DNA from: Clostridia bacterium
GTDB lineage: Bacteria; Bacillota; Clostridia; Christensenellales; Aristaeellaceae
Length of the DNA: 46,261 nt
Assembly: GCA_017459565.1 (NCBI GenBank)
Contig: JAFUCP010000098.1
Span: forward strand, 1 to 46,261
Direction of reading: 5' to 3'
Below, piece by piece: positions 4,166 through 46,132 of this stretch. The position numbers and the translations under genes were made by a program. How positions within the stretch are numbered: the first letter of the stretch is position 1; each line of letters starts with the position of its first letter. The notes under the pieces are model-generated. The model was not told the DNA's origin and searched no databases. It saw nothing but the letters and a program-made list of their open reading frames with translations.

Positions 4166-5221
4166 TCAGGGCTTCATCATCTTCACAAATCTGTCAAACA
4201 GCACGCTGGTATCCCTGGGGCCGGCGCAGGCTTCGGGGTGGAACTGCACGGAAAAGGCGTTCCATTCGGGATAATCGACGCCCTCGCAGGTCTGGTCGTT
4301 GGCGTTGATGAAGCGCACCCTGCCCGCGGGGAGGCTTTCGGAGACGACCGCGTAGCCGTGGTTCTGGCTGGTGATGTAGGTGTGGCCGGTTTCCAGGTCG
4401 ATCACAGGCTGGTTGCCGCCGCGGTGGCCGTATTTCAGCTTGGTGGTCGCCCCGCCCGCGGCCAGCGCCATCATCTGGTGGCCCAGGCACAGCCCGAACA
4501 GCGGGACCTTGCCCAAAAGGCGACGGATTTCATCGATACAGGCCGTGTTTTCCGCAGGGTCGCCGGGACCGTTGGACAGCATGACGCCGTCGGGGCGGGC
4601 GGCGAGGATTTCCCGGGCGGGAGTGGCGGGGGGAACCACCGTCACCTCGCAGCCCCGGGCCTGCAGCTCCCGTATGATGTTGCGCTTGGTGCCGTAGTCC
4701 ACCAGGGTCACGCCGCATTTTCTTTCGCCCTTCGCGGGGTACAGCGCGCGCTGCCGGGCCGCCACCGCCGCCACGCCGCCGGTCACGGCATAGGCCCTGA
4801 TTTCGGACAGGTCCTCCGGCACGGCGTCGCAGATCATGGCGTTCATGACGCCGCAGTCGCGGATGTGCTGGGTCACGGCGCGGGTATCCACGCCGCAGAT
4901 GCCGGGCACGCCCTGGCTTTTCAGGAACGCGTCCAGCGTGTACTGGCTGCGAAAGTTGCTGGGCTCGCGGCACCATTCGCGCACCACATAGCCCTTCAGG
5001 GCGCACTGCCCCTCAAAATCCTCCTCTATGATGCCGTAGTTGCCCACCTGGGGGAAGGTCTGCATCACGATCTGGCCGTAGTAGCTGGGGTCGGTGAGCG
5101 TTTCGATATAGCCCACCACGCCGGTGTTGAACACCAGCTCGCCGACGGCGGGGGCCGGCGCGCCGAAGCGCTCGCCCTCGTAAACGGTGCCGTCGGACAG
5201 GATCAAATATGCCTTGGACAT
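4166..5221 (-). CDS. carA: Carbamoyl-phosphate synthase small (glutamine amidotransferase) subunit
   Basis: The 351-residue product hydrolyses glutamine and passes ammonia to CarB. The N-terminal CPSase small-chain domain (MSKAYLILSDGTVYEGERFG, VVGYIETLTDPSYYGQ) is followed by a class I amidotransferase domain. That domain has the nucleophile Cys245 in LFGLCLGHQ and the His328/Glu330 pair in FHPE. A GTG 15 bases upstream is also in frame, but the ATG at 5221 has a GAGGTT ribosome site at suitable distance and starts at the usual family position. The gene lies 40 bases after the transglutaminase-like gene and 141 bases before carB, on the same strand. Assignment is certain. Confidence 0.97.
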   Translation of the reverse strand: MSKAYLILSDGTVYEGERFGAPAPAVGELVFNTGVVGYIETLTDPSYYGQIVMQTFPQVGNYGIIEEDFEGQCALKGYVVREWCREPSNFRSQYTLDAFLKSQGVPGICGVDTRAVTQHIRDCGVMNAMICDAVPEDLSEIRAYAVTGGVAAVAARQRALYPAKGERKCGVTLVDYGTKRNIIRELQARGCEVTVVPPATPAREILAARPDGVMLSNGPGDPAENTACIDEIRRLLGKVPLFGLCLGHQMMALAAGGATTKLKYGHRGGNQPVIDLETGHTYITSQNHGYAVVSESLPAGRVRFINANDQTCEGVDYPEWNAFSVQFHPEACAGPRDTSVLFDRFVKMMKP

Positions 5222-5261
5222 GTGGCGTAACCTCACTTTGACGAAAGTTGCCGGGCGAATT

Positions 5262-6254
5262 TCACCGCCAGTGGAACGCGAACACGTGGTTGCCGGGGTC
5301 GAAGCCGTAGGATTTGATGGCGTTGCAGGCGCGGCCCTTCCGGCCGATCCAGCAGTGGTTGCGCAATTTTTGGTAGATTTCCGCGCCCTGACCGGGGATG
5401 CCCGGCACCCTGACCTCGGTCACGGCCTGCTTCAGCGCGTGCTGCGCCACCATGGCCTCCGCCAGGGCGGGAATGTCCCGCGCCACGGGCAGGGGGCAGC
5501 GGCTCGAAGCGCAGGGCGGCAGGGGAAAGTCGGCGCTGGCCCAGTGGTTGTAGCGGATCTCCTCGTCGGAGAGCGCCAGGTAGGCGTGGGAGAGGTAGCT
5601 GTCGTTGTTGTCGTCCCAGGTGACATCCACATGATGGCAATGGCCGTCCACGTGGACGATGTTCCAGGCGTGGGTGCCCGTCTTGCCCTGGGCGTCCTTG
5701 GTGGTGCCGTAGACCACCATGCAGGAAAGCCCGCCCAGGTTCATCAGGTACTTGTAGGCCCGGGCGATGCCGGCGCAGACGCCCACGCCCCCGGCCAGCG
5801 GCCCCTCCAGGGTGTAATAGTGGAAGGGCTTGTTTTCCTCGCCGCCGTAGCTGATGGAGAGGGCCAGCGCGTCGTGCAGGTGGACCATGCGCTCAAAGGG
5901 CGGCAGGCGGTCTGCGCCGTTGAGCAGCCGGGCAATGCTGTCGGCGATGCGCTTCTGGCGCGCGGGCAGCTCCCTGAGGGGATAGAAGTAGCTCAGATCG
6001 ATGCTGTAGCTGGCCTGCGTCCCCGCGCCGAACTGGGTAAAGAGGGTCTTTGAGGCGTCCCAGTAAAAGGCTTCGGGGTGGTCGTGCTGTAAGGCGAGGA
6101 TGATGCGGGCCAAATCAAGGCCCCGCAGGGATTCGGCCTTTACGTTCTGCCGCCCGCCCAACACCCCGGCCAGGATGGCGTCGTAGAGGATCCCCTCCGC
6201 GCCGGACATGCGGCGGCGGTAGTACAGGGACTGTACGGGCTTGATGCCGGCCAT
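5262..6254 (-). CDS. Transglutaminase-like (Cys-His-Asp) domain protein
   Basis: This 330-residue cytoplasmic protein has no signal peptide. The C-terminal half carries a transglutaminase-like core with a probable triad of Cys160 (GGVGVCAGIARAYKYLMN), His195 (GTHAWNIV) and Asp210 (HHVDVTWDD). The segment LEGPLAGGVGVCAGIARAY is typical of bacterial proteins usually annotated as transglutaminase-like. Such folds may be proteases, peptide N-glycanase-like amidases or cross-linkers, and the substrate cannot be read from the sequence. The ATG at 6254 lies two bases after the argF stop. Its CGGAGG ribosome site is inside the argF end, so the two genes look translationally coupled. Its place between argF and carA in an arginine operon is unexpected. 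Confidence 0.85.
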   Translation of the reverse strand: MAGIKPVQSLYYRRRMSGAEGILYDAILAGVLGGRQNVKAESLRGLDLARIILALQHDHPEAFYWDASKTLFTQFGAGTQASYSIDLSYFYPLRELPARQKRIADSIARLLNGADRLPPFERMVHLHDALALSISYGGEENKPFHYYTLEGPLAGGVGVCAGIARAYKYLMNLGGLSCMVVYGTTKDAQGKTGTHAWNIVHVDGHCHHVDVTWDDNNDSYLSHAYLALSDEEIRYNHWASADFPLPPCASSRCPLPVARDIPALAEAMVAQHALKQAVTEVRVPGIPGQGAEIYQKLRNHCWIGRKGRACNAIKSYGFDPGNHVFAFHWR

Positions 6255-6256
6255 GG

Positions 6257-7246
6257 TCAGCCTCCGAGGGTGGCGGCCATGACGGCCTTGATGGTGTGCA
6301 TACGGTTTTCGGCCTCGTCGAACACGATGGATTGGGGCCCCTCGAATACCTCGTCGGTGACCTCCATGGCGTCGATGCCGAACTTATCGTGTATCTTGCG
6401 GCCAATGCCCGTGTTCAGGTCGTGGAAGGCGGGCAGGCAGTGCATGAACACCGCGTCCTTCCCGGCGGCCGCCATCAGCGCGGCATTGACCTGATAGGGC
6501 TTCAGATCGGAAATGCGCTCCTCCCAGACGGTGTCCGGCTCTCCCATGGAGACCCACACGTCGGTGTAGATCACGTCGGCGCCCGCCGCGGCCCGCGCCG
6601 CGTCCTCCGAGAAGCTGAGCGTCGCGCCGGTTTCGGCGGCGATGGCCCGGCACTGCCGGACGAGGGCGGGGTCCGGGAAGTATTTCTCCGGCGCGCAGGC
6701 CACGAAATCCATGCCCATCTTGGCGCAGCCCACCATCAGCGAATTGCCCATGTTGTAGCGCGCATCGCCGCAATAGACCAGCTTGACGCCCTTGATTCTG
6801 CCGAAATGCTCCTGAATGGTCAAGAGATCCGCCAGGATTTGCGTCGGGTGGAATTCGTTGGTCAGCCCGTTCCACACCGGCACGCCCGCGTATTTGGCCA
6901 GCGTCTCCACGATCTGCTGCTCAAAGCCGCGGTACTCGATGCCGTCGTACATCCGGCCCAGGACCCTTGCCGTGTCGGCGATGGACTCCTTTTTGCCGAT
7001 CTGGGAGCCGCTGGGGTCCAGATAGGTGACGCCCATGCCCAGGTCGTGCGCGGCCACCTCGAAGCTGCACCGCGTGCGGGTGCTGGTCTTTTCAAAGATC
7101 AGCGCGATGTTTTTCCCCGCCAGCTCCGCATGGGGGATACCGGCCTTCTTTTTGGCCTTGAGCTGCGCCGCCAGCTCCACCAGGCCCGCGATTTCCTGCG
7201 GCGTGAAATCCATCAGCTTCAGAAAGCTTCTATCCTTGAGATTCAT
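6257..7246 (-). CDS. argF: Ornithine carbamoyltransferase
   Basis: The 329-residue enzyme condenses ornithine and carbamoyl phosphate to citrulline. It shows the carbamoyl-phosphate loop FEKTSTRTR (residues 51-59), HPTQ, the ornithine-side motif [10 protein letters not shown] and DEVFEG, all typical of OTCase rather than aspartate carbamoyltransferase. Start ATG 7246 ([14 protein letters not shown]) follows GGGAGG. An upstream ATG at 7390 would prepend 48 residues encoded by the promoter and operator region and is rejected. It is the first gene of the argF-TGL-carA-carB operon and consumes the carbamoyl phosphate made by its operon partners. Confidence 0.97.
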
Positions 7247-7294
7247 GCGACAACCTCCCGACGTGTATTTCGTGCGTAAAGAACAATATGGATA

Positions 7295-7323
7295 ATAATA
7301 GACCTTTTCTCTCCGAATTACAA
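7295..7323 (-). promoter_or_regulatory. Sigma-A-type promoter for the argF operon
   Basis: On the minus strand TTGTAA (7323-7318) is followed after 17 bases by TATTAT (7300-7295), about 50 bases before the argF start. The two arg-box-like sites lie immediately upstream. Confidence 0.7.
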
Positions 7324-7328
7324 GGCTT

Positions 7329-7380
7329 CGAATGTAAAAATATACGAACAAATCCCCTTTTGAATGTATATATATGCAAA
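7329..7380. promoter_or_regulatory. Pair of arg-box-like operator sites upstream of argF
   Basis: Two related AT-rich sites occur in direct orientation in otherwise GC-rich DNA: CGAATGTAAAAATATACGAA (7329-7348) and TGAATGTATATATATGCAAA (7361-7380), with centres 32 bases apart. The core TGTATATATATGCA of the second matches the ArgR box pattern TGnAT-WWWW-ATnCA. The first is a weaker match. They sit directly upstream of the argF -35 hexamer, which would suit an arginine-responsive regulator. That ArgR binds here is inference from the motif and the gene content. Confidence 0.5.
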
Positions 7381-7506
7381 CATTATGCATAAAACCCGCA
7401 TGGGAACCGGGGCGCCGTCGAAAGCGTCAAAGGAGGGCAGGGGTGCGGTTTGAGCTTCAAATATTGACATTTGGTGGTCGTTTTTTCGCTTTTGAGGCGG
7501 ATGGCG

Positions 7507-7623: not shown

Positions 7624-9570
7624 ATGAGCATGAACTTTCTTGCGATCCTGATCAGCTTCGCCATGATGCTGACCGGCGCGGGCGCGGACGGTCAGAGCGC
7701 GGAGGCGTCCCGGACGCTGGTATTGCACAACATCAGCGTTACATACAACGACGAGACCGTGACGCTGGAGCCCTCGCTGCGCCTGGGCGCGTATACCGAC
7801 GGCGAAAAGGCCGTGTTTGACATCGGCCTGCCCATGGGGGACGAGACGCTGTTCCCGTTCCAGCTGGGCGTGGACAAGGACGGCGTCACCCTGCTGCACG
7901 AGGGCAGCGACGTGGCCGTGAGGGTTTCCGAGCAGGCGCTGAACGCCCTGTCGGAGCAGGCGGCGGCCGCCATGAAGAGCATGACCCAGCAGATGCAGAG
8001 CCAGCTTGAGGGCGAAAACGGCGAGGTGCTGTCGGTGCTGACGAACGATTTTCTGCCCGCCTACGCCGGCCTGATGGAGATGGTCAAGGACGCGGACACC
8101 ATGGAGCAGTTCCAGCAGACCGCCCGGCAGGTGCTGGACGAGGTGGTGGACCGGGGCGAGGGCCGCGACGTGTCGATGATGATCGAGGGTGAAAACTATG
8201 ATCTCACCGGCTACAATTACACCATCGAGGGCGTCCAGCTTGGCGAGCTGGCGGACAAGCTCTATGCGTCCAACGAAAAGCTGTCCGCCTTCTCCGGCGC
8301 GCTGTTCAAGCTGTACGGCGTATTGCCCGAGGAGTCCGGCCTGAACGATGTCAAGAGCTTCAAGGACCTTTTTGAGAAGTTCGGCATCGACATGCGCATG
8401 GACATGGACGAGACGGTTTCCGAAGACGGCGAGGTGGAGATCGTCGACGCCGTGATGACCGTCGATTTGAACGGCATGGTTTCCAGGCTTGTCGCCACCA
8501 AGGATGGCGAGCCGGAGAATGTGCCCGAAATCGAGCCCATCGTGATGAACATCCACAGCTCCAGGATGAACGGCGTCAACGAGGGCGTCATAAACATGGA
8601 GTACAACTTCGGCCCCGGCACGATGACCATGGACATGACCATCGCCGGCGACGACATGACCAACATCCAGCTGTCCATGGACATGGCCGTCTATCAGGAC
8701 GACGCCCAGCTGATGGACATGACAATTGCCGTCAACCAGACCGAGGACCGCTATGACCTCTTCTACGACGTGGACAGCATGGACAAAGGCTTTGTCCTCT
8801 CTGCCCGCGGCGCCCGCCAGGGCGATGGCAAGTCCACCAACAGCGTGGATCTGAGCATCGACATGGGCGATGAGGAGTTCGACATTTCCTTCGAGGCGGA
8901 CGTGACCGACGAGCCCTTTGAGGACAAGGTCAACGGCCATGAGGCGTATGTGATCGAGGAGCTGTCCCAGGAAGGCATTCAGGCGCTGCAGCAGGATCAG
9001 ACCTTTGCGGCGAATATCATGCAGGTGGCCGGCGCCGTGAGCGCGGACTTCCAGAAGCTGACGGCCGACGAGGATGTGCAGCAGGCGGCGGGCATGTTCG
9101 CGCTGCTGGGGATGCAGAGCGTGGCCACTCCCGTGGAGGACTATGATTACTCCGACGACAGCTTCGGCGAGGACGAGGATGTTTACGAGTATGAGGAGCC
9201 CGAGGACGACGGCGTGCTGCCCTTCGAACAGCCGGAATTCACCTGGCTGCCCGAGGGCTGGGAGATCGTGGAGACCAACGTGGATACCGCCTATGACATG
9301 GTGGAGGTCCAGATTGCCGACAAGAGCTATGACAACTATGCCTACGCCGTGTTCAACGTGGACTACGATACCGATCAGGTGAACTATCTGGTGAACGAGG
9401 ACGGCAGCTTCGCGCCCGTGGAGGGCCGCGAGGTGACCGTCACCGACTACGGCGACGGCAGCGTGTACGTCTCCATGCGCGACAGCGGCGTGTACACCTA
9501 CCTCTCCCTCGGCGGCCAGAAGCTGGACATGGATACCGTTTCCAAAATCGTCTCCGGAATCAAATTCTGA
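7624..9570 (+). CDS. Large acidic exported protein of unknown function
   Basis: The 648-residue product starts at ATG 7624, with a perfect AGGAGG (7608-7613) ten bases upstream. An upstream in-frame start at 7531 lies in the promoter and is rejected. The N-terminus (MSMNFLAILISFAMMLTGAG) looks like a signal peptide, and no later membrane segment is evident. The mature protein is rich in Asp, Glu and Met. It shows repeated beta-strand-like segments (MTMDMTIAGDDMTNIQLSMD, VDLSIDMGDEEFDISFEADV) and a very acidic linker near residues 515-540 (YDYSDDSFGEDEDVYEYEEP). A C-terminal domain begins around FTWLPEGWEIVETNVD and resembles small DUF4367-like domains of exported clostridial proteins. That resemblance is from memory only. 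I do not recognise the family. It is a single-gene unit closed by a strong terminator. Confidence 0.8.
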   Translation: MSMNFLAILISFAMMLTGAGADGQSAEASRTLVLHNISVTYNDETVTLEPSLRLGAYTDGEKAVFDIGLPMGDETLFPFQLGVDKDGVTLLHEGSDVAVRVSEQALNALSEQAAAAMKSMTQQMQSQLEGENGEVLSVLTNDFLPAYAGLMEMVKDADTMEQFQQTARQVLDEVVDRGEGRDVSMMIEGENYDLTGYNYTIEGVQLGELADKLYASNEKLSAFSGALFKLYGVLPEESGLNDVKSFKDLFEKFGIDMRMDMDETVSEDGEVEIVDAVMTVDLNGMVSRLVATKDGEPENVPEIEPIVMNIHSSRMNGVNEGVINMEYNFGPGTMTMDMTIAGDDMTNIQLSMDMAVYQDDAQLMDMTIAVNQTEDRYDLFYDVDSMDKGFVLSARGARQGDGKSTNSVDLSIDMGDEEFDISFEADVTDEPFEDKVNGHEAYVIEELSQEGIQALQQDQTFAANIMQVAGAVSADFQKLTADEDVQQAAGMFALLGMQSVATPVEDYDYSDDSFGEDEDVYEYEEPEDDGVLPFEQPEFTWLPEGWEIVETNVDTAYDMVEVQIADKSYDNYAYAVFNVDYDTDQVNYLVNEDGSFAPVEGREVTVTDYGDGSVYVSMRDSGVYTYLSLGGQKLDMDTVSKIVSGIKF

Positions 9571-9587
9571 TTTCCTGAAGCGACAAA

Positions 9588-9636
9588 GGGGGCTGTCTCA
9601 AAACCGCACTGTCGGTTTTGAGACAGCCCCCTTTTA
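9588..9636. terminator. Strong bidirectional intrinsic terminator
   Basis: A perfect 19-base inverted repeat, GGGGGCTGTCTCAAAACCG (9588-9606) and its complement (9613-9631), with a 6-base loop, is followed by TTTTA and preceded by AAA. It serves the plus-strand exported gene and the minus-strand GH operon, which converge here. The 3' arm recurs at 43237-43256. Confidence 0.9.
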
Positions 9637-9650
9637 TAGCTCTCCAGGTA

Positions 9651-11003
9651 TCACACGTTCAAGCACTCGCCGTTGGTTTCGATTACCCGGGCGTACCATC
9701 CGGCGGAATCCTTGGGGATGCGCCTCTGGGTGGCGTAATCCACGAAGATGAGGCCGAAGCGCTCGTCATAGCCGGAGCTCCACTCGAAGTTGTCCAAAAA
9801 GCTCCAGTGCAGGTAGCCGAACACCGGCACGCCCTCCTGGACAGCCCTGGAAAGCTCTGAGATATAGCGGTGCAGGTAGTTCACCCGGTCCGGGTCATGC
9901 ACCCTGCCGTCCAGGAATTCCACGTCGTTGCAGGACAGGCCGTTTTCGCTGATGATGATGGGCAGCCTGTAGCGGCGGTGGACGTTCATCGGGCCGTAGT
10001 GCATTACCGCCGGAGTGATGGGCCACTTGCAGGCCGTCAGCGGGTACCCGGCGGGCTTCGGCACGGCTTTGCCCTGGGCGTCCACCATCTGGCCCTGGTA
10101 CACGTTGATGCCGATGAAGTCCGGGGCCTCCATCAGCTCCCAGTCGGAGGCGGGGATGGTGGCGGCGAACTTCTTCACCACCGCCGGGACGGTGTCGTCG
10201 TAGCGCTTCAGCACCAGGCTGTCCAGCACGATGTTGAAGTTGAAGCCCCAGCGATCGCCGTATTCAAAGGAAGCGCGATAGGCGGCCTCGCGGCCCTCGG
10301 GGGTGTCCGCCTGGGGATAGCAGAGATTGCCGCAGGGCACAAAGCCCACCTGCACGCTTTCGCCCGCGACCTGCTTGATGGCGCGCATGGCGGCGCTGTG
10401 GCTGAGGGCGATGTGGTGGTAGATGCGGGCCAGCTCCTCCTCCGGCAGCTTCAGCCCCGGCGCGTGGGTGCCGATGCCGTAGCCCAGGAAGGTGATGCAC
10501 TGGGCCTCGTTGATGGTCATATACCACTTGACGCGGCCCTTGAAGCGCTGGGCGATGATGCGGGCATAGCGGGCGAACCAGTCCACGATCTGCGGGTTTT
10601 GCCAGCCGCCCTTGCGCTGCAGCGCGCTGGGCAGGTCCCAGTGGTACAGCGTGATCATGGGCTCGATGCCGTTGGCGATCAGCTCGTCCAACAGCGCATC
10701 GTAATAGGCAAGCCCGGCCTCGTTCACCTCGCCGTCGCCGTCGGGGATGACCCGGGGCCAGCTGATGGAGAAGCGGTAGGCGCGCAGGTTGTGGGCCTTC
10801 ATCAGCGCCACGTCCTCCCTGTAGCGGTGGTAGCTGTCGCAGGCCACGTCGCCGCTGTCGCCATTGTTGACGTGATGGCCGTTCAGCTCGTGGCAGAAGT
10901 CGTCCCAGATGCCGGGACCCTTGCCGTCCTCGTCCCAGGCGCCTTCGCACTGATAGGCGGCGCAGGCTGCGCCCCAGATGAAGTCAGAGGGGAATTTCAC
11001 CAT
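9651..11003 (-). CDS. Beta-glucosidase, glycoside hydrolase family 1
   Basis: The 450-residue cytoplasmic enzyme hydrolyses beta-linked (possibly 6-phospho) glucosides by a retaining mechanism. It shows the GH1 N-terminal signature FIWGAACAAYQCEGAW, the acid/base Glu166 (TINEAQ) and the nucleophile Glu353 (IISENG), and the C-terminal YLHWSFLDNFEWSSGYDERF. The acid/base motif has Ala-Gln where most GH1 enzymes have Pro after the Glu (TxNEP). No phosphate-binding signature is evident, so plain beta-glucosidase is preferred over 6-phospho-beta-glucosidase. The gene starts 12 bases after the GH3 stop behind GGGAGG and is last in the GT4-GH3-GH1 operon. Confidence 0.93.
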   Translation of the reverse strand: MVKFPSDFIWGAACAAYQCEGAWDEDGKGPGIWDDFCHELNGHHVNNGDSGDVACDSYHRYREDVALMKAHNLRAYRFSISWPRVIPDGDGEVNEAGLAYYDALLDELIANGIEPMITLYHWDLPSALQRKGGWQNPQIVDWFARYARIIAQRFKGRVKWYMTINEAQCITFLGYGIGTHAPGLKLPEEELARIYHHIALSHSAAMRAIKQVAGESVQVGFVPCGNLCYPQADTPEGREAAYRASFEYGDRWGFNFNIVLDSLVLKRYDDTVPAVVKKFAATIPASDWELMEAPDFIGINVYQGQMVDAQGKAVPKPAGYPLTACKWPITPAVMHYGPMNVHRRYRLPIIISENGLSCNDVEFLDGRVHDPDRVNYLHRYISELSRAVQEGVPVFGYLHWSFLDNFEWSSGYDERFGLIFVDYATQRRIPKDSAGWYARVIETNGECLNV

Positions 11004-11015
11004 ATTGAAGCCTCC

Positions 11016-13280
11016 CTATCCGTTGATTTTTTCAAGCAGCTCATCCAGAAAACCGTCCGGCAGCCCGCCGCCGCCGAAGCTGACGATGCCGCGCAGGGGC
11101 ATGTATTGCATCATGGCCATGCTCATATCGCTGGTGATGGCCTCGCTGGCGGAGCTGCCCTCCTCCTCCGGGGCCAGCATCGCGCCGATCTTCGCCATCA
11201 GCGGCTCAAGCGCCTCGCGGCCCCTGGGATCGGCCATGATGTCCATGAAGATGCTGTTCATGTCGTAATGTCTGGGCGGATGGACGGTGCCCTCCACCCG
11301 AACGGCGGCGCTGACGGGCAGGTCGCGGGAGGAGGCGCCCGCCTCGACGGTGTAATCACCGCTCTCCACGCACCAGTCGCGCATGTCGGTGTTCCAGGTG
11401 GCAAAGGCCCGCTTGTCCAGCGTGAACACCACGTCCCTCGCCTCGCCGCTGTCCAGCGCCACCTTTTCAAAGCCCTTGAGCTCCCGGAGGGGCCGGATCA
11501 CGTCGCCGCCCTCCCCGCGGCCCACATACAGCTGCACCGCGACCTTGCCCGGGCGCGGACCGACGTTTTTCACGGTGACGGTGGCGGCGAGGGTGTCCGT
11601 GTCCCGGATGGCGTCCGCGCTCAGGCGCAGATTGGAAAATTCAAAGCGGGTATAGGACAGGCCGTGGCCGAAGGGAAACAGCACGTCCATTTCCTTCTTA
11701 TCATAATAGCGGTAGCCCACGAACACGCCCTCGCGGTATTCCGTGCCCCGGGGCTCGCCGCCGTAGAACAGATAAGAGGGGTTGTCGGACAGCTTTTTCG
11801 GGAAGGTCTCCGGCAGGTGGCCGCAGGGGTTCGCGTCGCCGAACAGCACCCGCACGGTGGCCAGGCCCACGGCCTGTCCGCCCAGATAGGCCTCCAGCAC
11901 GGCCTTCACCCGGCCGATCCAGGGCATTTGGACAGGAGAGCCGTTGTGCAGCACCACCACGGTGTTGGCGTTGGCCCCGGCCACGGCGTCAATCAGCCGG
12001 TTCTGGCACTCTGGCAGGCGCATGTGCCTGCGGTCATAGCCCTCGGATTCATAGGAATCCGGCAGGCCCGCGAACACCACGGCCACCCTTGCGGCCTTCG
12101 CCGCGGCCACGGCCTCGGCGATCAGGGCGTCGTCGGCGCTGTCGGCTGCGGCGTCGTAGCCCCGGGCGTAGGTCACGTTCAGCCCGCGCGCCGCCTCGAG
12201 GGCGCCGGTGGTCTTGAAGCTGTTGATGTGGCTGGAGCCGCCGCCCTGGTAGCGGGGCCTTTCGGCAAATTCGCCGATGAAGGCCACGGCGTCGGACTTG
12301 TCCAGGGGCAAAAGGCCGTCCCCGTTCTTGAGCAGCACCATGCACTCCTCGGCGATCTGCGCAGAGAGCAGGTGCTGGGCCTCCATGTCCCAGGGGGTGT
12401 CGGGCCGGGCGCTTTCGGTGAAGCGGTACACGATGCTCAGGATGCGCTCACAGGCTTCGTCCAGCTTCGATTCCTCCAGACGGCCCTCGCGCACGGCGGC
12501 GACGAGCTTTCGGTCGTTCACGCCGCCGGAGGCGGGCATCTCCAGGTCCAGGCCCGCGGCGACGCCGGCCACGCGGTCGGACACCGCGCCCCAGTCGCTC
12601 ATCACATAGCCGTCAAAGCCCCATTCCTTCCGCAGCACATCGGTGAGCAGCCAGGGGTTTTCAGAGGCGAACACGCCGTTTAAGCGGTTGTAGGAACACA
12701 TCACCGTCCAGGGGCGGGCCTCCTTCACGGGGATTTCGAAGCCGGGGAAGTAGATTTCCCGCAGCGTGCGCTCATCCACGTCGGAGGAGGAACTCATGCG
12801 CCGATGCTCCTGGTTGTTGGCGGCAAAGTGCTTGATGGACACGCCCACGTTCCGGCTCTGTACGCCGCGGATGTAGGCCGCGGCCAGCTTGCCGGTCAGA
12901 TAGGGGTCCTCGCTGAAATATTCAAAGTTCCGGCCGCACAGCGGGCTGCGCTTGATATTGACGGCGGGCCCCAGCACCACGCTGACGCCCTCGTGCTGGC
13001 AGGAATCGCCGATGGCCTGGCCCATGCGGGCGAGCAGATCCCGGTCAAAGGAGGCGGCGGTGGCGCAGGCGGCGGGGAAGCAGACGGCCTTGATGCTTTC
13101 GTTGACGCCCAGGTGGTCGGCCTGCTGGTCCTGCTTGCGCAGCCCGTGAGGGCCGTCGGAGACCATCGTGGCCGGGATGCCCAGCCTTTCGACGGCCTTG
13201 GTGTGCCAAAAATCGCCGCCGGAGCAGAGGGAGGCCTTCTCCTCCAGCGTCATGCGTAAAACGAGCGCTTTGATATCCAT
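11016..13280 (-). CDS. Beta-glucosidase, glycoside hydrolase family 3
   Basis: The 754-residue protein has the GH3 N-terminal TIM barrel with the nucleophile Asp229 in GFDGYVMSDWGAV. It continues with the alpha/beta sandwich domain (VLLKNGDGLLPLD, VVVLHNGSPVQMPW) and a fibronectin-III-like C-terminal domain (PFGHGLSYTRFEFSNLRLS onward). No signal peptide is present, so it acts on imported glucosides. Start ATG 13280 lies two bases after the glycosyltransferase stop and has AAAGGAG upstream. The longer in-frame extension to 13802 overlaps the glycosyltransferase gene and is spurious. Together with the adjacent GH1 enzyme it suggests intracellular breakdown of beta-glucosides or cello-oligosaccharides. 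Confidence 0.95.
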   Translation of the reverse strand: MDIKALVLRMTLEEKASLCSGGDFWHTKAVERLGIPATMVSDGPHGLRKQDQQADHLGVNESIKAVCFPAACATAASFDRDLLARMGQAIGDSCQHEGVSVVLGPAVNIKRSPLCGRNFEYFSEDPYLTGKLAAAYIRGVQSRNVGVSIKHFAANNQEHRRMSSSSDVDERTLREIYFPGFEIPVKEARPWTVMCSYNRLNGVFASENPWLLTDVLRKEWGFDGYVMSDWGAVSDRVAGVAAGLDLEMPASGGVNDRKLVAAVREGRLEESKLDEACERILSIVYRFTESARPDTPWDMEAQHLLSAQIAEECMVLLKNGDGLLPLDKSDAVAFIGEFAERPRYQGGGSSHINSFKTTGALEAARGLNVTYARGYDAAADSADDALIAEAVAAAKAARVAVVFAGLPDSYESEGYDRRHMRLPECQNRLIDAVAGANANTVVVLHNGSPVQMPWIGRVKAVLEAYLGGQAVGLATVRVLFGDANPCGHLPETFPKKLSDNPSYLFYGGEPRGTEYREGVFVGYRYYDKKEMDVLFPFGHGLSYTRFEFSNLRLSADAIRDTDTLAATVTVKNVGPRPGKVAVQLYVGRGEGGDVIRPLRELKGFEKVALDSGEARDVVFTLDKRAFATWNTDMRDWCVESGDYTVEAGASSRDLPVSAAVRVEGTVHPPRHYDMNSIFMDIMADPRGREALEPLMAKIGAMLAPEEEGSSASEAITSDMSMAMMQYMPLRGIVSFGGGGLPDGFLDELLEKING

Positions 13281-37495: not shown

Positions 37496-38179
37496 TCAGC
37501 TGTTGGTGTTGTGGGGCAGCAGCGTGGCCAGTATGCTGGCGAAGTTGGACATGGGCATGGTTTGCAGCAGCACCCTGCCGGGGCCGGTGACCACGGTGTT
37601 GAAGAAGCCCTCGCCGCCCAGCAGCGCGTTTTTCGCGCCCTTCACGGCCTGGATATCCAGCTGCACCGTGGCGTCCATCATGGCCAGATAGCCGGTGTCC
37701 AGCACCAGCTGCTGCCCGGCGGCCAGGTTGTATTCCACCGTCGCGCCGTCGATCTCCAGGAACACGGTGCCGCTGCCGGAAATCTTCTGCATGACAAAGC
37801 CCTCGCCGCCGAAGAAGCCGCCGCTCAGCCTCTTTTGCAGGTGGGTACTCAGCTCCACGCCGCCGGTGGAGGCGAGAAAAGACCGCTTCTGGCAGATGAT
37901 GGGGGTGGAGGGGGTGATCTCATAGGCCCGTATGCAGCCGGGGAAGCTGGCCGCAAAGGCGATCATGCCCGCGCCGCCCCGGGCGGTGTAGTGGTTCTGC
38001 ATGGCGTTTTCGCCGGAAAACAGCCTCCCGAACACCTTGCCGATGCCGCCGCCGCTGGTTTCCATTTGCATGTTGGGGGTCATCCAGCTCATGGCGCCGG
38101 ATTCGCAGATCATGGTCTCGCCGTTGTCAACCTGGCAGATGACGACCGGCATGGGCTCTCCCTTGATTTCATATCGCAT
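37496..38179 (-). CDS. AIM24/TIGR00266 family protein
   Basis: The 227-residue beta-rich protein is related to yeast mitochondrial Aim24 and bacterial YpqP/TIGR00266-type proteins. Family traits include VICQVDNGETMICESGAMSW, MQMETSGGGIGKVFGRLFSG and Gly-rich strand repeats such as SGTVFLEIDGATVEYNLAAG and LLGGEGFFNTVVTGPGRVLL. Function is unknown. A membrane-associated or oligomeric scaffold role has been suggested for the family. ATG 38179 is preferred, with AAGGAGG seven bases upstream. The ATG at 38185 almost touches that site. It lies 67 bases before the P-type ATPase on the same strand. Confidence 0.9.
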   Translation of the reverse strand: MRYEIKGEPMPVVICQVDNGETMICESGAMSWMTPNMQMETSGGGIGKVFGRLFSGENAMQNHYTARGGAGMIAFAASFPGCIRAYEITPSTPIICQKRSFLASTGGVELSTHLQKRLSGGFFGGEGFVMQKISGSGTVFLEIDGATVEYNLAAGQQLVLDTGYLAMMDATVQLDIQAVKGAKNALLGGEGFFNTVVTGPGRVLLQTMPMSNFASILATLLPHNTNS

Positions 38180-38200
38180 GGTCATACCTCCTTAATTGTG

Positions 38201-38365: not shown

Positions 38366-38677
38366 CTAAAGCGCCAGCTGTATCAGCGTCATGTACAGCG
38401 CCGTCCCCGCCAGGATGCTGAGCAGGGAATTGCGCTTCAGCGCCTGCACGCCCGCGACGCAGGCCACCGCCGCCGCCTCCGGCAATCCGAAGGGGCGGGC
38501 GGACAGCGAAACATCCTTCAGGCAGTAGACGACCAGCATACCGATGATGGCCGGGGGAAGGACCCTGCCCAGATTTGCGACCCAGGGCGGCGTTTGGCGC
38601 TTGAACACGATAAACGGCAGCGCCCGCAGCGCGATGGTCACGGCGGACATGACGGCGATGAGGACGGCCGATCTCAT
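38366..38677 (-). CDS. azlD: AzlD-family branched-chain amino acid exporter subunit
   Basis: The 103-residue protein has four hydrophobic segments and the AzlD signature ALRALPFIVFKRQTPPWVAN followed by LGRVLPPAIIGMLVVYCLKD. It pairs with AzlC in a small exporter for branched-chain amino acids or their analogues. Its ATG at 38677 overlaps the AzlC stop (ATGA), so the two are translationally coupled. Confidence 0.92.
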   Translation of the reverse strand: MRSAVLIAVMSAVTIALRALPFIVFKRQTPPWVANLGRVLPPAIIGMLVVYCLKDVSLSARPFGLPEAAAVACVAGVQALKRNSLLSILAGTALYMTLIQLAL

Positions 38678-39360
38678 TTTGCACCCTCCTTTCGCCCGCG
38701 CAGCAGCGCCAGCACGAGGGTGATCAACAGCATGGCGGGAACGAGGAAGCTGTCCCGCCCGAAAACCAACAGGCACAAAAGCGTACACAAAAGGCCGGTG
38801 ATCGCGGGCAGATGGTCCTTCGCGGTGATCCACTGCTCCGTAAACGAGGCGACAAACAGCGCCGTCATGGAAAATTCGATGCCCGCCGTCGAAAACGGCA
38901 GCGCCGTGCCCAGCAGGCTCCCCATGACGCTGCCCGCGACCCAGTAGCCGTGGTTGAACAGGGAAACCAGAAAGCAGAAAAGGCCGCTGTCCGCCTCCTC
39001 GGGCGCCTTCGCGCCGCAGAGCAGGGAATAGGTCTCGTCCGTGAGCGCGAAGATCAGATAGGGCTTGTATTTGCCGGCGCCCTTGTACTTGTCGATCATG
39101 GAGATGCTGTAAAACAGGTGCCGGGCGTTGACCATAAAGGTGGTGACGGCGGTCGTCAGCACGGACGCGCCCCCGGCCAGCAGCCCCACGCCCACGTATT
39201 GCATGGAGCCGGCATAGATAAACAGGCTCATGGCCGCCGCCCATACCACGCCGTAGCCGGCGTTGCGGAGCAGGATGCCAAAGCCCATGCCCAATACCAG
39301 ATAGCCCGCCATGACGGGAACCGATTTGTAAAAAGCCTGCCTGATGAGCTGTGCCTTCAT
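38674..39360 (-). CDS. azlC: AzlC-family branched-chain amino acid exporter subunit
   Basis: The 228-residue membrane protein has AzlC family segments: PVMAGYLVLGMGFGILLRNA, SLFIYAGSMQYVGVGLLAGG, VNARHLFYSISMIDKYKG and DETYSLL. Start ATG 39360 (MKAQLIRQAFYKS). The GGGAGGG upstream is 13 bases away, longer than usual. An in-frame start at 39429 lies inside the promoter and is rejected. It forms an operon with azlD under a palindromic operator, as expected of a regulated exporter. Confidence 0.92.
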   Translation of the reverse strand: MKAQLIRQAFYKSVPVMAGYLVLGMGFGILLRNAGYGVVWAAAMSLFIYAGSMQYVGVGLLAGGASVLTTAVTTFMVNARHLFYSISMIDKYKGAGKYKPYLIFALTDETYSLLCGAKAPEEADSGLFCFLVSLFNHGYWVAGSVMGSLLGTALPFSTAGIEFSMTALFVASFTEQWITAKDHLPAITGLLCTLLCLLVFGRDSFLVPAMLLITLVLALLRGRKEGAK

Positions 39361-39384
39361 GGCCGAACCATGCCCTCCCGATAA

Positions 39385-39429
39385 ATACCAGTATGCTGGT
39401 ATATTACCACAGCCCGGGCCTTTCCACAA
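39385..39429 (-). promoter_or_regulatory. azlCD promoter with overlapping palindromic operator
   Basis: The minus strand reads TTGTGG (39429-39424), 17 bases, then TAATAT (39406-39401). A perfect inverted repeat, ATACCAG-TATG-CTGGTAT (39385-39402), overlaps the -10 hexamer and the likely start of transcription. This position fits a repressor site. The repressor is not in the window next to azlC. Confidence 0.7.
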
Positions 39430-41241: not shown

Positions 41242-43086
41242 TCATCCCTCCGCGTCCCCGACGCAGAGCTTCCCGATGGGCGCGGCGTCCAGCACGCGCT
41301 GTTCGATTTCAAAGTAGACCTCGCTGTGGCCGGCGGGGGAGCGGACGGTTTTCAGCGCCGAACCCAAGCCGTTGAGCAGGGCGGAGACCACATCCGCGCC
41401 GAGGCCGGAGGCTTCGCGCACGTTCGCCGATTGCGACTGCACGCGCACGGAAAAGAGCAGGTGAATCCCCTCCTCCAACGACTTTCCGTAGACGGCCAGC
41501 TGCACCCTTCCGCCGTCGGCCGCGGAAAGGCTCCCGAAAACCATATTTACGAGGACCTCCCGGAGCAGCCTGGCATCGCCCAAGAGCCCGTCGGGCAGTG
41601 TCTCCGAGGCGTCCACCGCCACGTCGAACCCGCTGTCCCTTGCCTGGGGCAGGACGGTTTGCAGGGTGTCTGTCAGGAGCCGTCGCAACGAATAGGCCTC
41701 GGAAGCGGGCTGGATTTTGCCGGATTCGATGCCGAAGCCGTCCACAAGGCCGTCGGTCAGCGTCAGCAGCCTTTGCGCCGCGCCGTGGGCGCTGCGCGCA
41801 TAATGCCTGACGGCATCCCCGTCGCTTTCCGCGAGGATTCTGCCGCTTAGATCGACCATGCTTTGCAGCGGATGCTGCAAATCGCGGGCCAGGCTGGCCA
41901 CAAAGGCGGCCTTGGCCTCGTTGCCGGATTCGGCCTCCTCGATGCGGTGGACGATGGCCTCCTGCTCCTCCCTTTCGTCGTTGATGTTCTGCACGGTAAA
42001 GACCACGTTCTCCAGAGGCTTGCCTTCAACGCGGTCCATGGCGCAAAAGCGGATGGAACACCAGCCGTATTGGATGCTGCGGAAATCGATGGCGACGCTG
42101 TTGCGGTCCTTCAGGCGGCTGGCCAGCGTGTCCGTGTCCACAAATTCCAACATGCAGTCCCGGTATACTTCCTCGGCGTCCCGCATGATCAGCTCGGTGA
42201 GCAGCTCCTTCGCGGTGCGGTTCTTCGGGCGCTCGCGCTCCACCTTGTCGTCCACGGAAACCGGCGTCATCTCCCCGGTGGGCAGGTGGATGATGTAGAT
42301 GAGGTCATAGATATCGGACATGCTGAAGATGCCGGATTTGCGCAGCTCCATCTCCTTTACGGCCCGGCGGTAGGCGACATTGCCGGCGATCATCATGATC
42401 ACGGAAATCAGACTCAGCACGGCCAGGGCGATGAAGATACAAAAGGTGATGCCCTGTGTAAACTGGCGGTGGAAATGCAGCTGCAAATCATAATCGGACA
42501 AATCCAGCTCGTCCAGATAATAGAATATCACGCCGATCTTGACGTCGCCTCCGCCGTCGACGGGCATTTCGCTGAAGCGGGTGCTGGGGTAGTAGATCAC
42601 ATAATCGCCCTGCTGCAGGGGGATCAGCAAATCCCCGTCGTAGTAGTTCTTGAAGGTCACGTCCTCCAGCTGGTAATTTTGCAGGTTCATCCGCTGGACC
42701 TTTTCCGCGTCCGTGCCGACAAACTGGTGAATTTCCACTTCGCCGTTCCAGGCCTGGTTGATAAAGCAGTCCCCGGTGATGTTGATCCGCAGCTCCCAAT
42801 CCTGAACGGCATCCCTGCTTTGGTTGACCAGCGTGCCGTCGATGGTCTGCCCGGTCAGATCGACCACGCGGCCGTCGTCCATCTGAAAGGACCGTTTCAG
42901 CCAGGTGCTGGTGCTGTCGGCCCTGGCGTCAATTTCCATTCGAACCGCTTCGGCGCTGTCGTTGCCGTGAATGTAGAGCGCCCTTCGGTTGAACCGGACC
43001 AGGGATTCCATGTGAATGACCAGTGTGATCAGCAATAGAACGAATAGGACGATGCTGAGCCGTTTCAGTCTGATCTGATCTAACAT
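41242..43086 (-). CDS. Sensor histidine kinase-like protein, apparently catalytically dead
   Basis: The 614-residue protein has two membrane segments (about residues 11-28 and 212-236) flanking an extracytoplasmic sensor domain of some 180 residues. A PAS-like domain follows (IDFRSIQYGWCSIRFCAMDR, ENVVFTVQNINDEREEQ), then a dimerisation helix and an ATPase-like domain. In the H-box, where kinases read SHDIRTPM, this protein reads ARDLQHPL, with Arg401 in place of the phosphoacceptor His. The N-box region reads VNMVFGSLSAADGG without the key Asn, and no DxGxG loop is visible. It is therefore probably a signal-relay pseudokinase. ATG 43086 follows GAGGGA. The HD-GYP gene downstream is the likely partner. 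Confidence 0.88.
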   Translation of the reverse strand: MLDQIRLKRLSIVLFVLLLITLVIHMESLVRFNRRALYIHGNDSAEAVRMEIDARADSTSTWLKRSFQMDDGRVVDLTGQTIDGTLVNQSRDAVQDWELRINITGDCFINQAWNGEVEIHQFVGTDAEKVQRMNLQNYQLEDVTFKNYYDGDLLIPLQQGDYVIYYPSTRFSEMPVDGGGDVKIGVIFYYLDELDLSDYDLQLHFHRQFTQGITFCIFIALAVLSLISVIMMIAGNVAYRRAVKEMELRKSGIFSMSDIYDLIYIIHLPTGEMTPVSVDDKVERERPKNRTAKELLTELIMRDAEEVYRDCMLEFVDTDTLASRLKDRNSVAIDFRSIQYGWCSIRFCAMDRVEGKPLENVVFTVQNINDEREEQEAIVHRIEEAESGNEAKAAFVASLARDLQHPLQSMVDLSGRILAESDGDAVRHYARSAHGAAQRLLTLTDGLVDGFGIESGKIQPASEAYSLRRLLTDTLQTVLPQARDSGFDVAVDASETLPDGLLGDARLLREVLVNMVFGSLSAADGGRVQLAVYGKSLEEGIHLLFSVRVQSQSANVREASGLGADVVSALLNGLGSALKTVRSPAGHSEVYFEIEQRVLDAAPIGKLCVGDAEG

Positions 43087-43119
43087 TGTCACATTCCCTC
43101 TTTATCCTTTATATTGATC

Positions 43120-43223: not shown

Positions 43224-43256
43224 GGGGCTGCCTCTATTTTGAGACAGCCCCCTTTT
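43224..43256. terminator. Terminator-like hairpin sharing the GAGACAGCCCCC arm with the one at 9588
   Basis: GGGGCTGCCTC (43224-43234) and GAGACAGCCCC (43241-43251) pair with one mismatch, followed by CTTTT. The sequence TTTTGAGACAGCCCCCTTTT (43237-43256) is identical to 9616-9635. It overlaps the end of the 47-codon ORF. Confidence 0.65.
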
Positions 43257-43377
43257 GGCGGCCTGGGCAGAATTTGAACCGGTGGCCCCATAGAGGTGAA
43301 CAATGCGCGCTGTCATGGTGGCCTTTGCACATGATGCATTTGTGCCAGGAGAAACGTCCCCGTGACACGTCATCCAT
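43234..43377 (-). CDS. Possible 47-residue Cys/His-rich small protein
   Basis: This short frame starts at ATG 43377 with AAGGA about 11 bases upstream. It encodes RFSWHKCIMCKGHHDSAHCS, then PLWGHRFKFCPG and a tail GRQKGAVSK. Four Cys and several His in a C-x2-C-x8-C-x10-C layout suggest metal binding, with KFCPG resembling the second knuckle of a zinc ribbon that would normally continue CPxCG. The last codons are supplied by the terminator-type repeat, as if an insertion had replaced the original end. It may be a truncated relic rather than a functional gene. Confidence 0.45.
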   Translation of the reverse strand: MDDVSRGRFSWHKCIMCKGHHDSAHCSPLWGHRFKFCPGRQKGAVSK

Positions 43378-43514: not shown

Positions 43515-46013
43515 TTAAGCCGCGTCGTCCAGGGCGTCCATCGCTTCCTGCGCGTCGGCTTCATTCCAGAACTCGGCCTGCTTCGCCAGAGCGCTGTTCG
43601 TCTGCGCCTTTATGTTCAGAAGCGCCCGCGCGTCCTCAAAGTATTCGGACTGCCGGACCGCGTCCTTCAGGAAGCGGGAGGACAGCTGCTCCATGTCGTG
43701 GGCGAGCAGGGAGATGCATTCGATATCCGGCCGGGAGCGATCCAGGATAAAGCTGGTTTCCTGTTCGTCCAGTACGCCGCACAGGGCGGTCTCGTAGCCG
43801 GAGCGCTGCGCCCGGCGATCAATCTCCGGCTGCAGGAAGGCCAGCAGGGCCAGCGCCTCGGAGACATCCTCGCCGCTGTCATTGACCAGCTGGTCTATGT
43901 ACATAAGGCCCTTGTCCAGGTAGTTCAGATACTTCTCGTCGTCCGCCAGGCGGATCAGCGGCGGATAAAGCGCGTCCAGCAGGCCGTAATCCGCGAGTAT
44001 GCGCCATGCGCTGGAGGAATAGCCCCCGACCATCATCTTGCTGGCGTTCATGACGACATCCGAACGCCCCATGGTGCTGATACCCGCCACGCCATATTCC
44101 CGGATGGCGCGTTCCAGGCTATCGGAGAATTCAAAGCCAAAGCGCGCCTTGAAGCGGATGGCCCGAAGGATCGCCCTGGGATCGTCCTGTACCTTGACAG
44201 AGCCGTCCACCATGGTGTTCAGCACGCCATCGCGCAGGTCGTGAATACCGCCGTGGTAGTCCACAAGATCCCCGTTGGACATGTCATAGTAGATGGCGTT
44301 CATCGTCAGGTCGCGCTGGAAGGAATCCGCCACCAGGGAATCGCTGGTCGTGGAGGAAGGGTCGAATTCCGGCACGCCGGAGATCCCGTAAAAGGCTGCG
44401 GGTATATTCTGGTAGGTAGCCAGGTCCACCAGCTCGTTGGGGAATATTACGCCGCCGAACACCCTGCCGCCGCCCCAGTGGGTTTCCAGGGCATCGCCGA
44501 AGATTGCCCGCTGCTGCTCCAGCGTGGCGTTGGTCGTGATGTCGATGTCATTGCTGTCCGTACCCAGGATGAAATCGCGGATGCAGCCGCCAACCACATA
44601 GGCCTCGTAGCCGTTTTCCATCAGCTTCCTGCCCACTTCGATGCTGTTCGCGGTGAGCATCTCATCGGTGATGCCATGCAGGGACATGGGAATGCGCAGC
44701 TCGGCATAGCCCTCTCCCTGCACCCGCTGGTAGTTCTCGTCAATCATGCGGTTGATCTCTTCATTGGCAAATATGCCGGTGGACGCGGCTTGCGCCTCTC
44801 CGGAAGACAGCAGCTCCAGGAGTCTCTGCGCAGTCAGGTCGCGCTCGTCGCCATAGAAGCCGTACACGGGGTCCATCTCCGCAAGCGCCGCCTCCACGGC
44901 GTCCTCGGCGCTCATGGTGTCCAGGCGCCTGCGGACGGCGGGCAGCAGTATCGCGGCCGTGCCCATGGGGGTGGTGATGTCCTCGCCCTTATCGTAGGCG
45001 GCGTCCAGCGCGGCGAGGGCGGCGCGCGCTTCGGCCAGATAGGCCTCGTCGGCGCACAGCTCGGCCACGGGCTTATAGAAGTGACCCAGCAGGCCGTAGT
45101 CCAGCAATGTGTCAAAGCAGGTTACGGCATAGCCGCCGATCCACATGCGGCGAAGCTGGTTCTGAGCGTTGGAGGGATCCATATTCCCGACATAGTCCAG
45201 ACAATGCTGCATGACGGATTCCAGGTCCGGCGAGAAGCGGCTGCCCTCATAGCGGGAGAGGAAGCGGAGGTAGCGGATCATCTGCGCGGGCCGGTTCGCC
45301 AGCTGCGCATGCGGATCCACGAGTACCCTGATCACCTTATCCTGAATGTCGCGCAGGCCGCCGTGATAGTCCAGGATGTCTCCGGTGGCCAGATCGTAGT
45401 AGAGCGCGTTGATGGTCAGATCCCGGCCGTAGCTGTCATACAGCGGGGAATCCGCGGTGAGCGCTTCGGGATCAGTCTCGGGCACGCCGGGCAGGCCCAT
45501 TAGGAAGGCGGGTACATTGCACAGCGATGCCAGGTCGATGCCCTCGCCGTTATAGTGTACCAAGCCGTATTGCAGCTCGCTGCCCTCCACGCCATGGAGG
45601 AACAGGTCATCCCCAAAGAGCTCCTGCCAGAGCTCCAGAGGCGCGTCCGTGGCGATGTCAAAATCGTTGACGGACTTATTCAGTATCATATCCCGCACCG
45701 CGCCGCCGGTAAGGTAGGCCTGATAGCCCCTGTCGATCAGCTGCTGACCGACGGCGATGGCATTCGGGGAGATAAACGCCTGACTGATCCCGTGGACGCT
45801 GAGTGGAATGCGAAGCTCCGACCAGCCCACCTCGGCGGCTTCTTCCGCGGCCTCGTCGATCTTCTGCGCGAGCTCCGGATTTTTAAAAACGCCGGTCGCA
45901 GGCGTCTGTTCCTCCGCCAACGCGCTCAAAACGCCGCTCAGCGACAGTATCGCCGCCAGCAGCAGCCCCAGCCATGTATTTTTTCTCCTTGCGCCTGAAA
46001 ACATGAACAACAT
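43515..46013 (-). CDS. Exported protein with two tandem CCA-adding/poly(A)-polymerase-type nucleotidyltransferase units
   Basis: The 832-residue product begins at ATG 46013 behind AAGGA and has a signal peptide (RRKNTWLGLLLAAILSLSGV, cleavage likely after ALA33). Two homologous halves follow. Each starts with a matching lead (GWSELRIPLSVHGIS, GYAELRIPMSLHGIT) and has the class II nucleotidyltransferase motifs. Half 1 has TGGAVRDMILNKSVNDFDI with Asp117/Asp119, GRDLTINALYYD and DYHGGLRDIQDKVIR. Half 2 has VGGCIRDFILGTDSNDIDI with Asp489/Asp491, QRDLTMNAIYYD, DYHGGIHDLRDG and DDPRAILRAIRF. Both metal-binding Asp pairs remain. Normal CCA enzymes are single-unit, cytoplasmic and about 400-450 residues. 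There is no other membrane segment. Its substrate outside the cell is unknown. A frame extension to 46091 lacks a ribosome site and crosses the promoter. Confidence 0.92.
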   Translation of the reverse strand: MLFMFSGARRKNTWLGLLLAAILSLSGVLSALAEEQTPATGVFKNPELAQKIDEAAEEAAEVGWSELRIPLSVHGISQAFISPNAIAVGQQLIDRGYQAYLTGGAVRDMILNKSVNDFDIATDAPLELWQELFGDDLFLHGVEGSELQYGLVHYNGEGIDLASLCNVPAFLMGLPGVPETDPEALTADSPLYDSYGRDLTINALYYDLATGDILDYHGGLRDIQDKVIRVLVDPHAQLANRPAQMIRYLRFLSRYEGSRFSPDLESVMQHCLDYVGNMDPSNAQNQLRRMWIGGYAVTCFDTLLDYGLLGHFYKPVAELCADEAYLAEARAALAALDAAYDKGEDITTPMGTAAILLPAVRRRLDTMSAEDAVEAALAEMDPVYGFYGDERDLTAQRLLELLSSGEAQAASTGIFANEEINRMIDENYQRVQGEGYAELRIPMSLHGITDEMLTANSIEVGRKLMENGYEAYVVGGCIRDFILGTDSNDIDITTNATLEQQRAIFGDALETHWGGGRVFGGVIFPNELVDLATYQNIPAAFYGISGVPEFDPSSTTSDSLVADSFQRDLTMNAIYYDMSNGDLVDYHGGIHDLRDGVLNTMVDGSVKVQDDPRAILRAIRFKARFGFEFSDSLERAIREYGVAGISTMGRSDVVMNASKMMVGGYSSSAWRILADYGLLDALYPPLIRLADDEKYLNYLDKGLMYIDQLVNDSGEDVSEALALLAFLQPEIDRRAQRSGYETALCGVLDEQETSFILDRSRPDIECISLLAHDMEQLSSRFLKDAVRQSEYFEDARALLNIKAQTNSALAKQAEFWNEADAQEAMDALDDAA

Positions 46014-46103: not shown

Positions 46104-46132
46104 ATTATACCAGAATCAATGTGTTCTTTCAA
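46104..46132 (-). promoter_or_regulatory. Strong promoter of the exported nucleotidyltransferase gene
   Basis: The minus strand reads TTGAAA (46132-46127), 17 bases, then an extended, perfect -10, TGGTATAAT (hexamer 46109-46104), leaving a leader of about 85 bases. The remaining 46133-46261 holds a small stem (CCATGC/GCATGG) and no supportable gene. Confidence 0.85.

Follow-up and report, generated by a model that had tools for sequence, protein, structure and literature searches.

The closest described relatives of the protein considered here are the poly(A) polymerase PcnB (TIGR01942; E. coli 3aql) and the class II CCA-adding enzymes of the PolyA_pol head family. The LicD phosphotransferases are nucleotidyltransferase (NTase)-fold enzymes that act on glycans, and the same is described for FKRP (PMC6965139). 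FKRP/fukutin and LicD belong to a different family and serve only as a precedent for the NTase fold working away from NTP and RNA. For the class II CCA enzymes, one study describes a base held by two Arg/Asp couples (PMC8563995), and in another, on the human CCA enzyme, no variant selected from a partly randomised library had the D or R of the EDxxR motif replaced (PMC11784652). A literature search, largely confined to openly available papers, found no description of a poly(A) polymerase or nucleotidyltransferase family that is exported or secreted.

The gene described here encodes a predicted exported protein built from two PcnB-like units. Its fold, including the neck, body and C-terminal part, is that of PcnB, and the catalytic DxD and GGxxRD motifs are present in all 18 exported units that were compared. 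In contrast to PcnB, the exported family has an export-type N terminus, RRD has become xRD, and EDxxR is lost together with R124, R245 and E249; in addition, the protein studied here is doubled and the exported proteins are mostly acidic. Compared with class II CCA-adding enzymes, the exported units show a lower structural match, form a separate clade, lack the template motif and reach no CCA family cut-off. The family thus shares the fold and core of PcnB and departs from it in the export signal, the nucleotide site and the architecture.

The window gene and its product

The window, that is the whole stretch of DNA analysed, is a contig of 46,261 bases from a Clostridia bacterium genome of 3.40 Mb in 249 contigs. 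The gene lies at the end of this contig, where its upstream side is cut off. An intact open reading frame on the minus strand runs from an ATG at 46013 to a stop codon ending at 43515 (832 codons plus stop), so that an earlier note made from the DNA sequence had the coordinates and strand right. An alternative in-frame ATG at 46004 (Met4) shows good spacing from the AAGGAAAAAGG ribosome site and, judged by this spacing, is as likely to be the start. A signal peptide is retained with either start, the n-region ARRKN being followed by the hydrophobic stretch GLLLAAILSLSGVLSALA and then EEQ. The features of the locus are as follows.

43515..46013, minus strand: coding sequence of the predicted exported double PcnB-like protein, 832 aa, or 829 aa from the ATG at 46004
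45915..46013, minus strand: putative Sec-type signal peptide, residues 1–33 (sequence features and homologues)
44802..45914, minus strand: unit 1, residues 34–404, grouping with the stand-alone gene L035:49-1320 (RUG311)
45327..45719, minus strand: PolyA_pol head domain 1 (81.5 bits)
45657..45665, minus strand: DxD catalytic pair of unit 1, D117 and D119 (motif comparison)
43518..44801, minus strand: unit 2, residues 405–832, grouping with the stand-alone genes L035:1472-2854 and L185:5857-7218
44220..44603, minus strand: PolyA_pol head domain 2 (88.3 bits)
44541..44549, minus strand: DxD catalytic pair of unit 2, D489 and D491 (motif comparison)
46104..46132, minus strand: promoter-like site TTGAAA-17-TATAAT with extended −10 (11/12 matches; TG before the −10)
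43224..43251, minus strand: weak terminator-like hairpin downstream of the gene and before the next one (41242-43092, minus strand); 4 found, 2.2 expected

Pfam PolyA_pol (PF01743) matched the whole protein at E 1.2e-47, with 161.8 bits over two stretches and a curated cut-off of 23 bits, and the genome gave the two head domains as separate matches (45327-45719 and 44220-44603). The GGxxRD motif, the DxD pair and RDLTxNA are retained in both units. The tandem nucleotidyltransferase units claimed by the earlier note, with their catalytic Asp pairs (D117/D119 and D489/D491), RDLTINAL-type motif and neck region, were confirmed. A full-length model of the protein reached a pTM of 0.50, from which the mutual arrangement of the two units is not readable.

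The strong promoter proposed for the gene corresponds to the TTGAAA-17-TATAAT site with its TG, which is promoter-like by sequence; four such sites were found in the scanned stretch against 1.1 expected. By eye, no adjacent immunity gene or delivery domain was seen at the window gene, as far as the contig end allows on the upstream side, or at the other loci read, in agreement with the earlier remark that no immunity gene was obvious. The 47-codon frame downstream (43234-43377, minus strand) encodes several Cys and His residues, overlaps the terminator-like hairpin and gave no Pfam match. Elsewhere in the window, an AIM24-family protein (PF01987, 239.7 bits) is encoded at 37496-38185 (minus strand), downstream of an AzlC-type transporter gene (38674-39429). 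The same genome carries a separate ordinary CCA enzyme on contig C75 (L046), which has no export-type start, and the housekeeping CCA job is therefore covered.

Predicted export and active site across the family

All 16 genes with a readable N terminus have, by sequence, an export-type start, either signal or lipoprotein-like, and the family members therefore appear to be exported; the signal peptide named in the earlier note rests on its own sequence features and on these homologue starts. Thirteen of the genes were measured and gave peak N-terminal hydrophobicities of 2.02 to 3.66, whereas none of 46 ordinary enzymes, with N termini set at the first Met of the frame, exceeded 1.75; the starts of L182, L184 and L185 were judged by eye. 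Lipobox-like starts (LSSC, LTGC) are present in L037, L038, L040 and L158 and would anchor these proteins to the membrane. Such predicted lipoprotein forms would point to activity on the surface of the producer itself. Two members, L039 and L041, have a lysine-rich C-terminal tail. The isoelectric point is 4.2–4.7 in nine of 11 family proteins, compared with 9.67 for E. coli PcnB. Acidity was also considered as evidence. Net charge per 100 residues was −6.2 to −13.7 in five of six other exported-looking proteins (+3.1 in the sixth) and −7.8 in one cytosolic protein, so that charge was given no weight.

The active site was compared across 18 exported units, using E. coli PcnB numbering. The set includes two broken copies (L044 and L183) and leaves out L037, a near-copy of L038, as well as L040 (cut by a contig end), L042 (head deleted) and L045 (a remnant). 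The 46 ordinary enzymes comprised 39 of 43 fetched loci that passed a filter, together with seven named enzymes; PAP_Aeromonas, a fragment only, was kept outside. The filter used length and the motifs GGx[VIC]RD and RRD[FLW], so that the counts for those motif letters among the 46 hold partly by construction; R124, R208, R245 and E249 were no part of this selection.

Every exported unit retains G66, G67, R70, D71, D80, D82, R161, D162, N166 and R211, and the acid at position 119 is Asp throughout. D80, D82 and D162 are the catalytic acids of E. coli PcnB. In contrast, R124 (45/46 ordinary enzymes), R245 (46/46) and E249 (45/46) occur in none of the 18. R160, the first Arg of RRD, is likewise absent from all 18, compared with 46/46 ordinary enzymes, a count partly due to selection, or 16/16 without the RR selection. 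R208 of the base-reading EDxxR motif was found in none of 16 exported units (two gaps; one Lys, in L185) and in 46/46 ordinary enzymes, while D205 of the same motif, the template Asp, is kept in 8/18 compared with 46/46. In six of the 18 units an Arg is found one residue ahead, at 207. It could be that part of the nucleotide site persists in some members, as D205, Arg 207 and the Lys at 208 of L185 may indicate.

Other positions have become fixed. His 100, Glu 114 and Ser 158 are new residues present in all 18 units, and Asn 125, Pro 127 and His 181 are present in 17; in unit 2 of the window protein the new invariant residues are H512, E527 and S564 and the nearly invariant ones N536 and H587. 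Taken together with the role of the Arg/Asp couples in CCA enzymes, these counts indicate that the exported family has retained the metal site and largely dropped the base reader.

Distribution, origin and surroundings of the family

A scan of named genome contigs returned nine loci, of which eight are relatives of the exported kind; the ninth, L043, was considered as a member and rejected as an ordinary CCA enzyme by its motifs. The relatives share 31–63% identity with unit 1 of the window protein. The earlier note suggested a search for homologues with a signal peptide and two PolyA_pol domains: two of 16 genes are double (the window gene and L060), single genes being the common form, and the Asp pairs are present in 18/18 units. 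Rumen or omasum is named in the record titles of three of the eight relatives, and one record is Lachnospiraceae bacterium V9D3004; RUG names denote rumen genomes. The exported family appears in some gut bacteria, several from ruminant forestomachs, and this ruminant bias may mirror the choice of genomes sequenced.

Profile searches found the family in 4/28 genomes of the window's genus and in 8/307 genomes of a taxonomic family inferred to be the same as the window's. Among genomes sampled from the families to which the genomes with L038 and L041 belong, 2/397 and 2/329 were positive, one genome being shared. The class sample (1/391) and the phylum sample (1/378, one ordinary CCA match removed) each returned only the own genome. 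From these counts the family is rare and patchy. One further candidate, G1468, lay above the profile threshold, yet its motifs mark it as an ordinary CCA enzyme. A search with the window protein itself matched 94 of 100 family genomes, the best hit outside the own genome having E 8.6e-24, and these outside matches were taken for ordinary CCA enzymes.

A viral origin was considered and rejected. In viral contigs there was no pattern match for the window protein; a profile matched widely there, with at least 549 of 600 stretches confirmed and 80 kept at 26–38% identity, and these, as listed, were taken for ordinary CCA/PAP relatives. Two plasmid searches matched 80 and 74 records, all below 60% identity. 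Among the best 15 of the 80 and 40 of the 74, the annotated genes were pcnB/poly(A) polymerase, CCA enzyme, polynucleotide adenylyltransferase region and HD-domain protein.

In the tree, exported, PcnB and CCA units form three clades, the exported one on a very long stem branch (1.5–1.6). The drawn root shifted between two trees, the second of which carried a long-branch warning, so that the tree does not establish the exported clade as the sister of PcnB. Kinship with PcnB rests on the fold score, the HMM scores and the shared C-terminal domain. Scores against TIGR01942 fell below its cut-off of 305.65 bits (window protein 289.9, L060 double protein 265.6, eight others 126–174; E. coli 523). 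In some comparisons the rows for L036 and L060 carry extra or double domains. The window protein scored 21.2 bits for PF12627 against a cut-off of 22, and PF12626 was not among the matches listed; elsewhere, PF12626 was above cut-off in L061, L158, L182 and L184, and PF12627 in L060 and L185.

The two window units have different partners. Unit 1 forms a pair with L035:49-1320 (support 100/100); L035:1472-2854, together with the single gene L185, forms a group with unit 2 (100/99). In RUG311 (L035) the two single-unit genes stand head to head across a gap of 151 bases, and both encode a signal peptide. A grouping of L060 unit 2 with window unit 2 and L035:1472-2854, a group chosen after the first tree had been seen, was rejected (AU p 0.00016). 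Since a single shared doubling is thereby rejected for L060, two units were probably joined in at least two separate events.

In comparison with RUG311, dN/dS was 0.29 for one unit of the window protein and 0.41 for the other, and two further pairs gave 0.10 and 0.16; purifying selection has thus maintained the proteins. Decayed copies also occur. In the own genome, L044 (C211, 1-1110, minus strand, at a contig edge) is a family member whose signal peptide is interrupted by a stop codon and whose frame is broken; by eye it is closest to unit 1 of L060. L045 (C24, 3794-4336, minus strand) is a decayed paralogue, a C-terminal remnant with 58% identity to the end of unit 2 (residues 712–766). L183 has a frame break, and in V9D3004 both the signal peptide and the DxD region are missing from the family gene L042 (5940-6100), as if deleted. 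Assembly error is a possible source of the frame breaks.

Several neighbours and fusions were recorded. An exported-looking adenosine-deaminase-family protein (L036, 7713-9218, plus strand) lies between two exported PcnB-like genes, and a relative of it occurs in 1/28 genomes of the window's genus. At L060, an exported-looking 773-aa fusion of HAD phosphatase and histidine acid phosphatase (4190-6511, minus strand) is divergent from the double gene; its relatives occur in 24/28 genus genomes, often in several copies, far wider than the PcnB-like family. L158 has a lipoprotein-like tyrosine phosphatase (Y_phosphatase3; 2729-3910, plus strand), whose longest frame overlaps the end of the lipoprotein-like PcnB-like gene, and L182 has a 5'-nucleotidase gene split in two frames beside the PcnB-like gene. 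The L182 protein itself (4972-7488, minus strand) has a C-terminal region of ~370 residues with a weak AAT (Ntn hydrolase) match (E 0.16). At L036, a PcnB-like protein (9552-11753, plus strand) has an extra N-terminal region of ~260 residues, with no convincing Pfam or PDB sequence match and a ParB-like look. No phosphatase, deaminase or nucleotidase neighbour of this kind was recognised by eye at L037, L038, L039, L041, L061, L184 (frames partly on the wrong strand) or L185. Fusions and neighbours loosely match an extracellular ester chemistry and are inconsistent between loci. Gene neighbourhood was set aside as functional evidence and is a hint at most, the neighbours differing between loci and the deaminase and phosphatase not being tied to the family.

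Candidate functions

Because the catalytic acids are kept and R124, R160, R208 and R245 are gone, a rebuilt substrate site is most likely, rather than extracellular RNA tailing. We consider it moderately probable that the family consists of exported, PcnB-derived, metal-dependent enzymes with a substrate other than NTP and an RNA end. In some Clostridia, a PcnB-type protein would have gained an export signal and turned into a metal-dependent transferase that works at the surface or outside the cell. Its two-metal DxD site would still serve to transfer or cleave a phosphate-ester bond, the donor or acceptor being presumably other than an NTP and an RNA 3' end, and in the window two such units have been joined into one protein. 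A tentative first guess for the job is that extracellular nucleotides or other phosphate esters are broken down or salvaged. A second guess, itself unlikely but ahead of others, is that polymers on the cell's own surface are modified, by analogy with the FKRP-type NTase-fold phosphotransferases. Against an exported enzyme, note that little NTP or activated donor is available outside cells, that the conserved acids could be partly structural, and that neighbour genes vary between loci with no clear pathway. The earlier proposal of an exported, doubled nucleotidyltransferase acting on extracellular RNA, nucleotides or otherwise stands as to export-type starts (16/16) and the kept DxD (18/18); RNA tailing outside the cell is unlikely, given R124, R160 and R245 in 0/18 units and R208 in 0/16.

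One other interpretation of these data is a non-catalytic fold reused outside the cell, in which the PcnB scaffold would bind a ligand (nucleic acid, glycan or metal) and the acids would be structural or metal-binding. The loss of the NTP-contacting arginines in the 18 compared units and the very long stem branch would fit such a protein. However, D80, D82, D162, R70, D71, R161 and N166 are present in 18/18 units across proteins with 31–63% identity to unit 1 of the window protein, a pattern usual for active sites, and we regard this interpretation as rather unlikely.

It is less likely again that the proteins are secreted toxins or effectors that act inside other cells (rumen protozoa, fungi or bacteria) and take the nucleotide from the target. 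The predicted export, the patchy occurrence, the broken copy and remnant in the own genome and the extra N-terminal region of one relative (L036), ParB-like in look, are consistent with that role. However, the lipoprotein-like starts of L037, L038, L040 and L158 would hold the protein on its producer, the base-reading residues are lost, PADLOC found nothing in the window protein, and neither an immunity gene nor a repeat scaffold or a delivery domain was seen beside the gene.

A genuine polymerase of the poly(A) or CCA type working outside the cell, where it would tail free RNA with NTPs from lysed cells, would explain the fold and catalytic acids shared with E. coli PAP; it is improbable with the EDxxR Arg in 0/16 units, the first Arg of RRD, R124 and R245 in 0/18, and scores under the pcnB family cut-off. 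Most improbable of all is an ordinary cytoplasmic CCA/PcnB paralogue with a mis-called signal peptide, as 16 genes have independent export-type starts, including lipobox-like versions, and the own genome has an ordinary CCA enzyme without one (C75, L046).

It is a real possibility, though falling somewhat short of probable, that the exported PcnB-derived proteins form an undescribed extracellular metalloenzyme family descended from poly(A) polymerase, which would have lost the residues that read the nucleotide, acquired a different conserved pocket, come to catalyse a reaction new to the superfamily (phospho-transfer or phosphodiester), and undergone repeated doubling and fusion to other exported domains. 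Textbooks place the polymerases of this superfamily inside the cell, and a conserved exported branch with the catalytic acids but without the nucleotide-reading residues would show a template-independent polymerase turned to other chemistry. The single-domain relatives (L035:1472-2854 and L185:5857-7218), with matching Asp positions, would offer a clean test set for extracellular NTase cores in the rumen.
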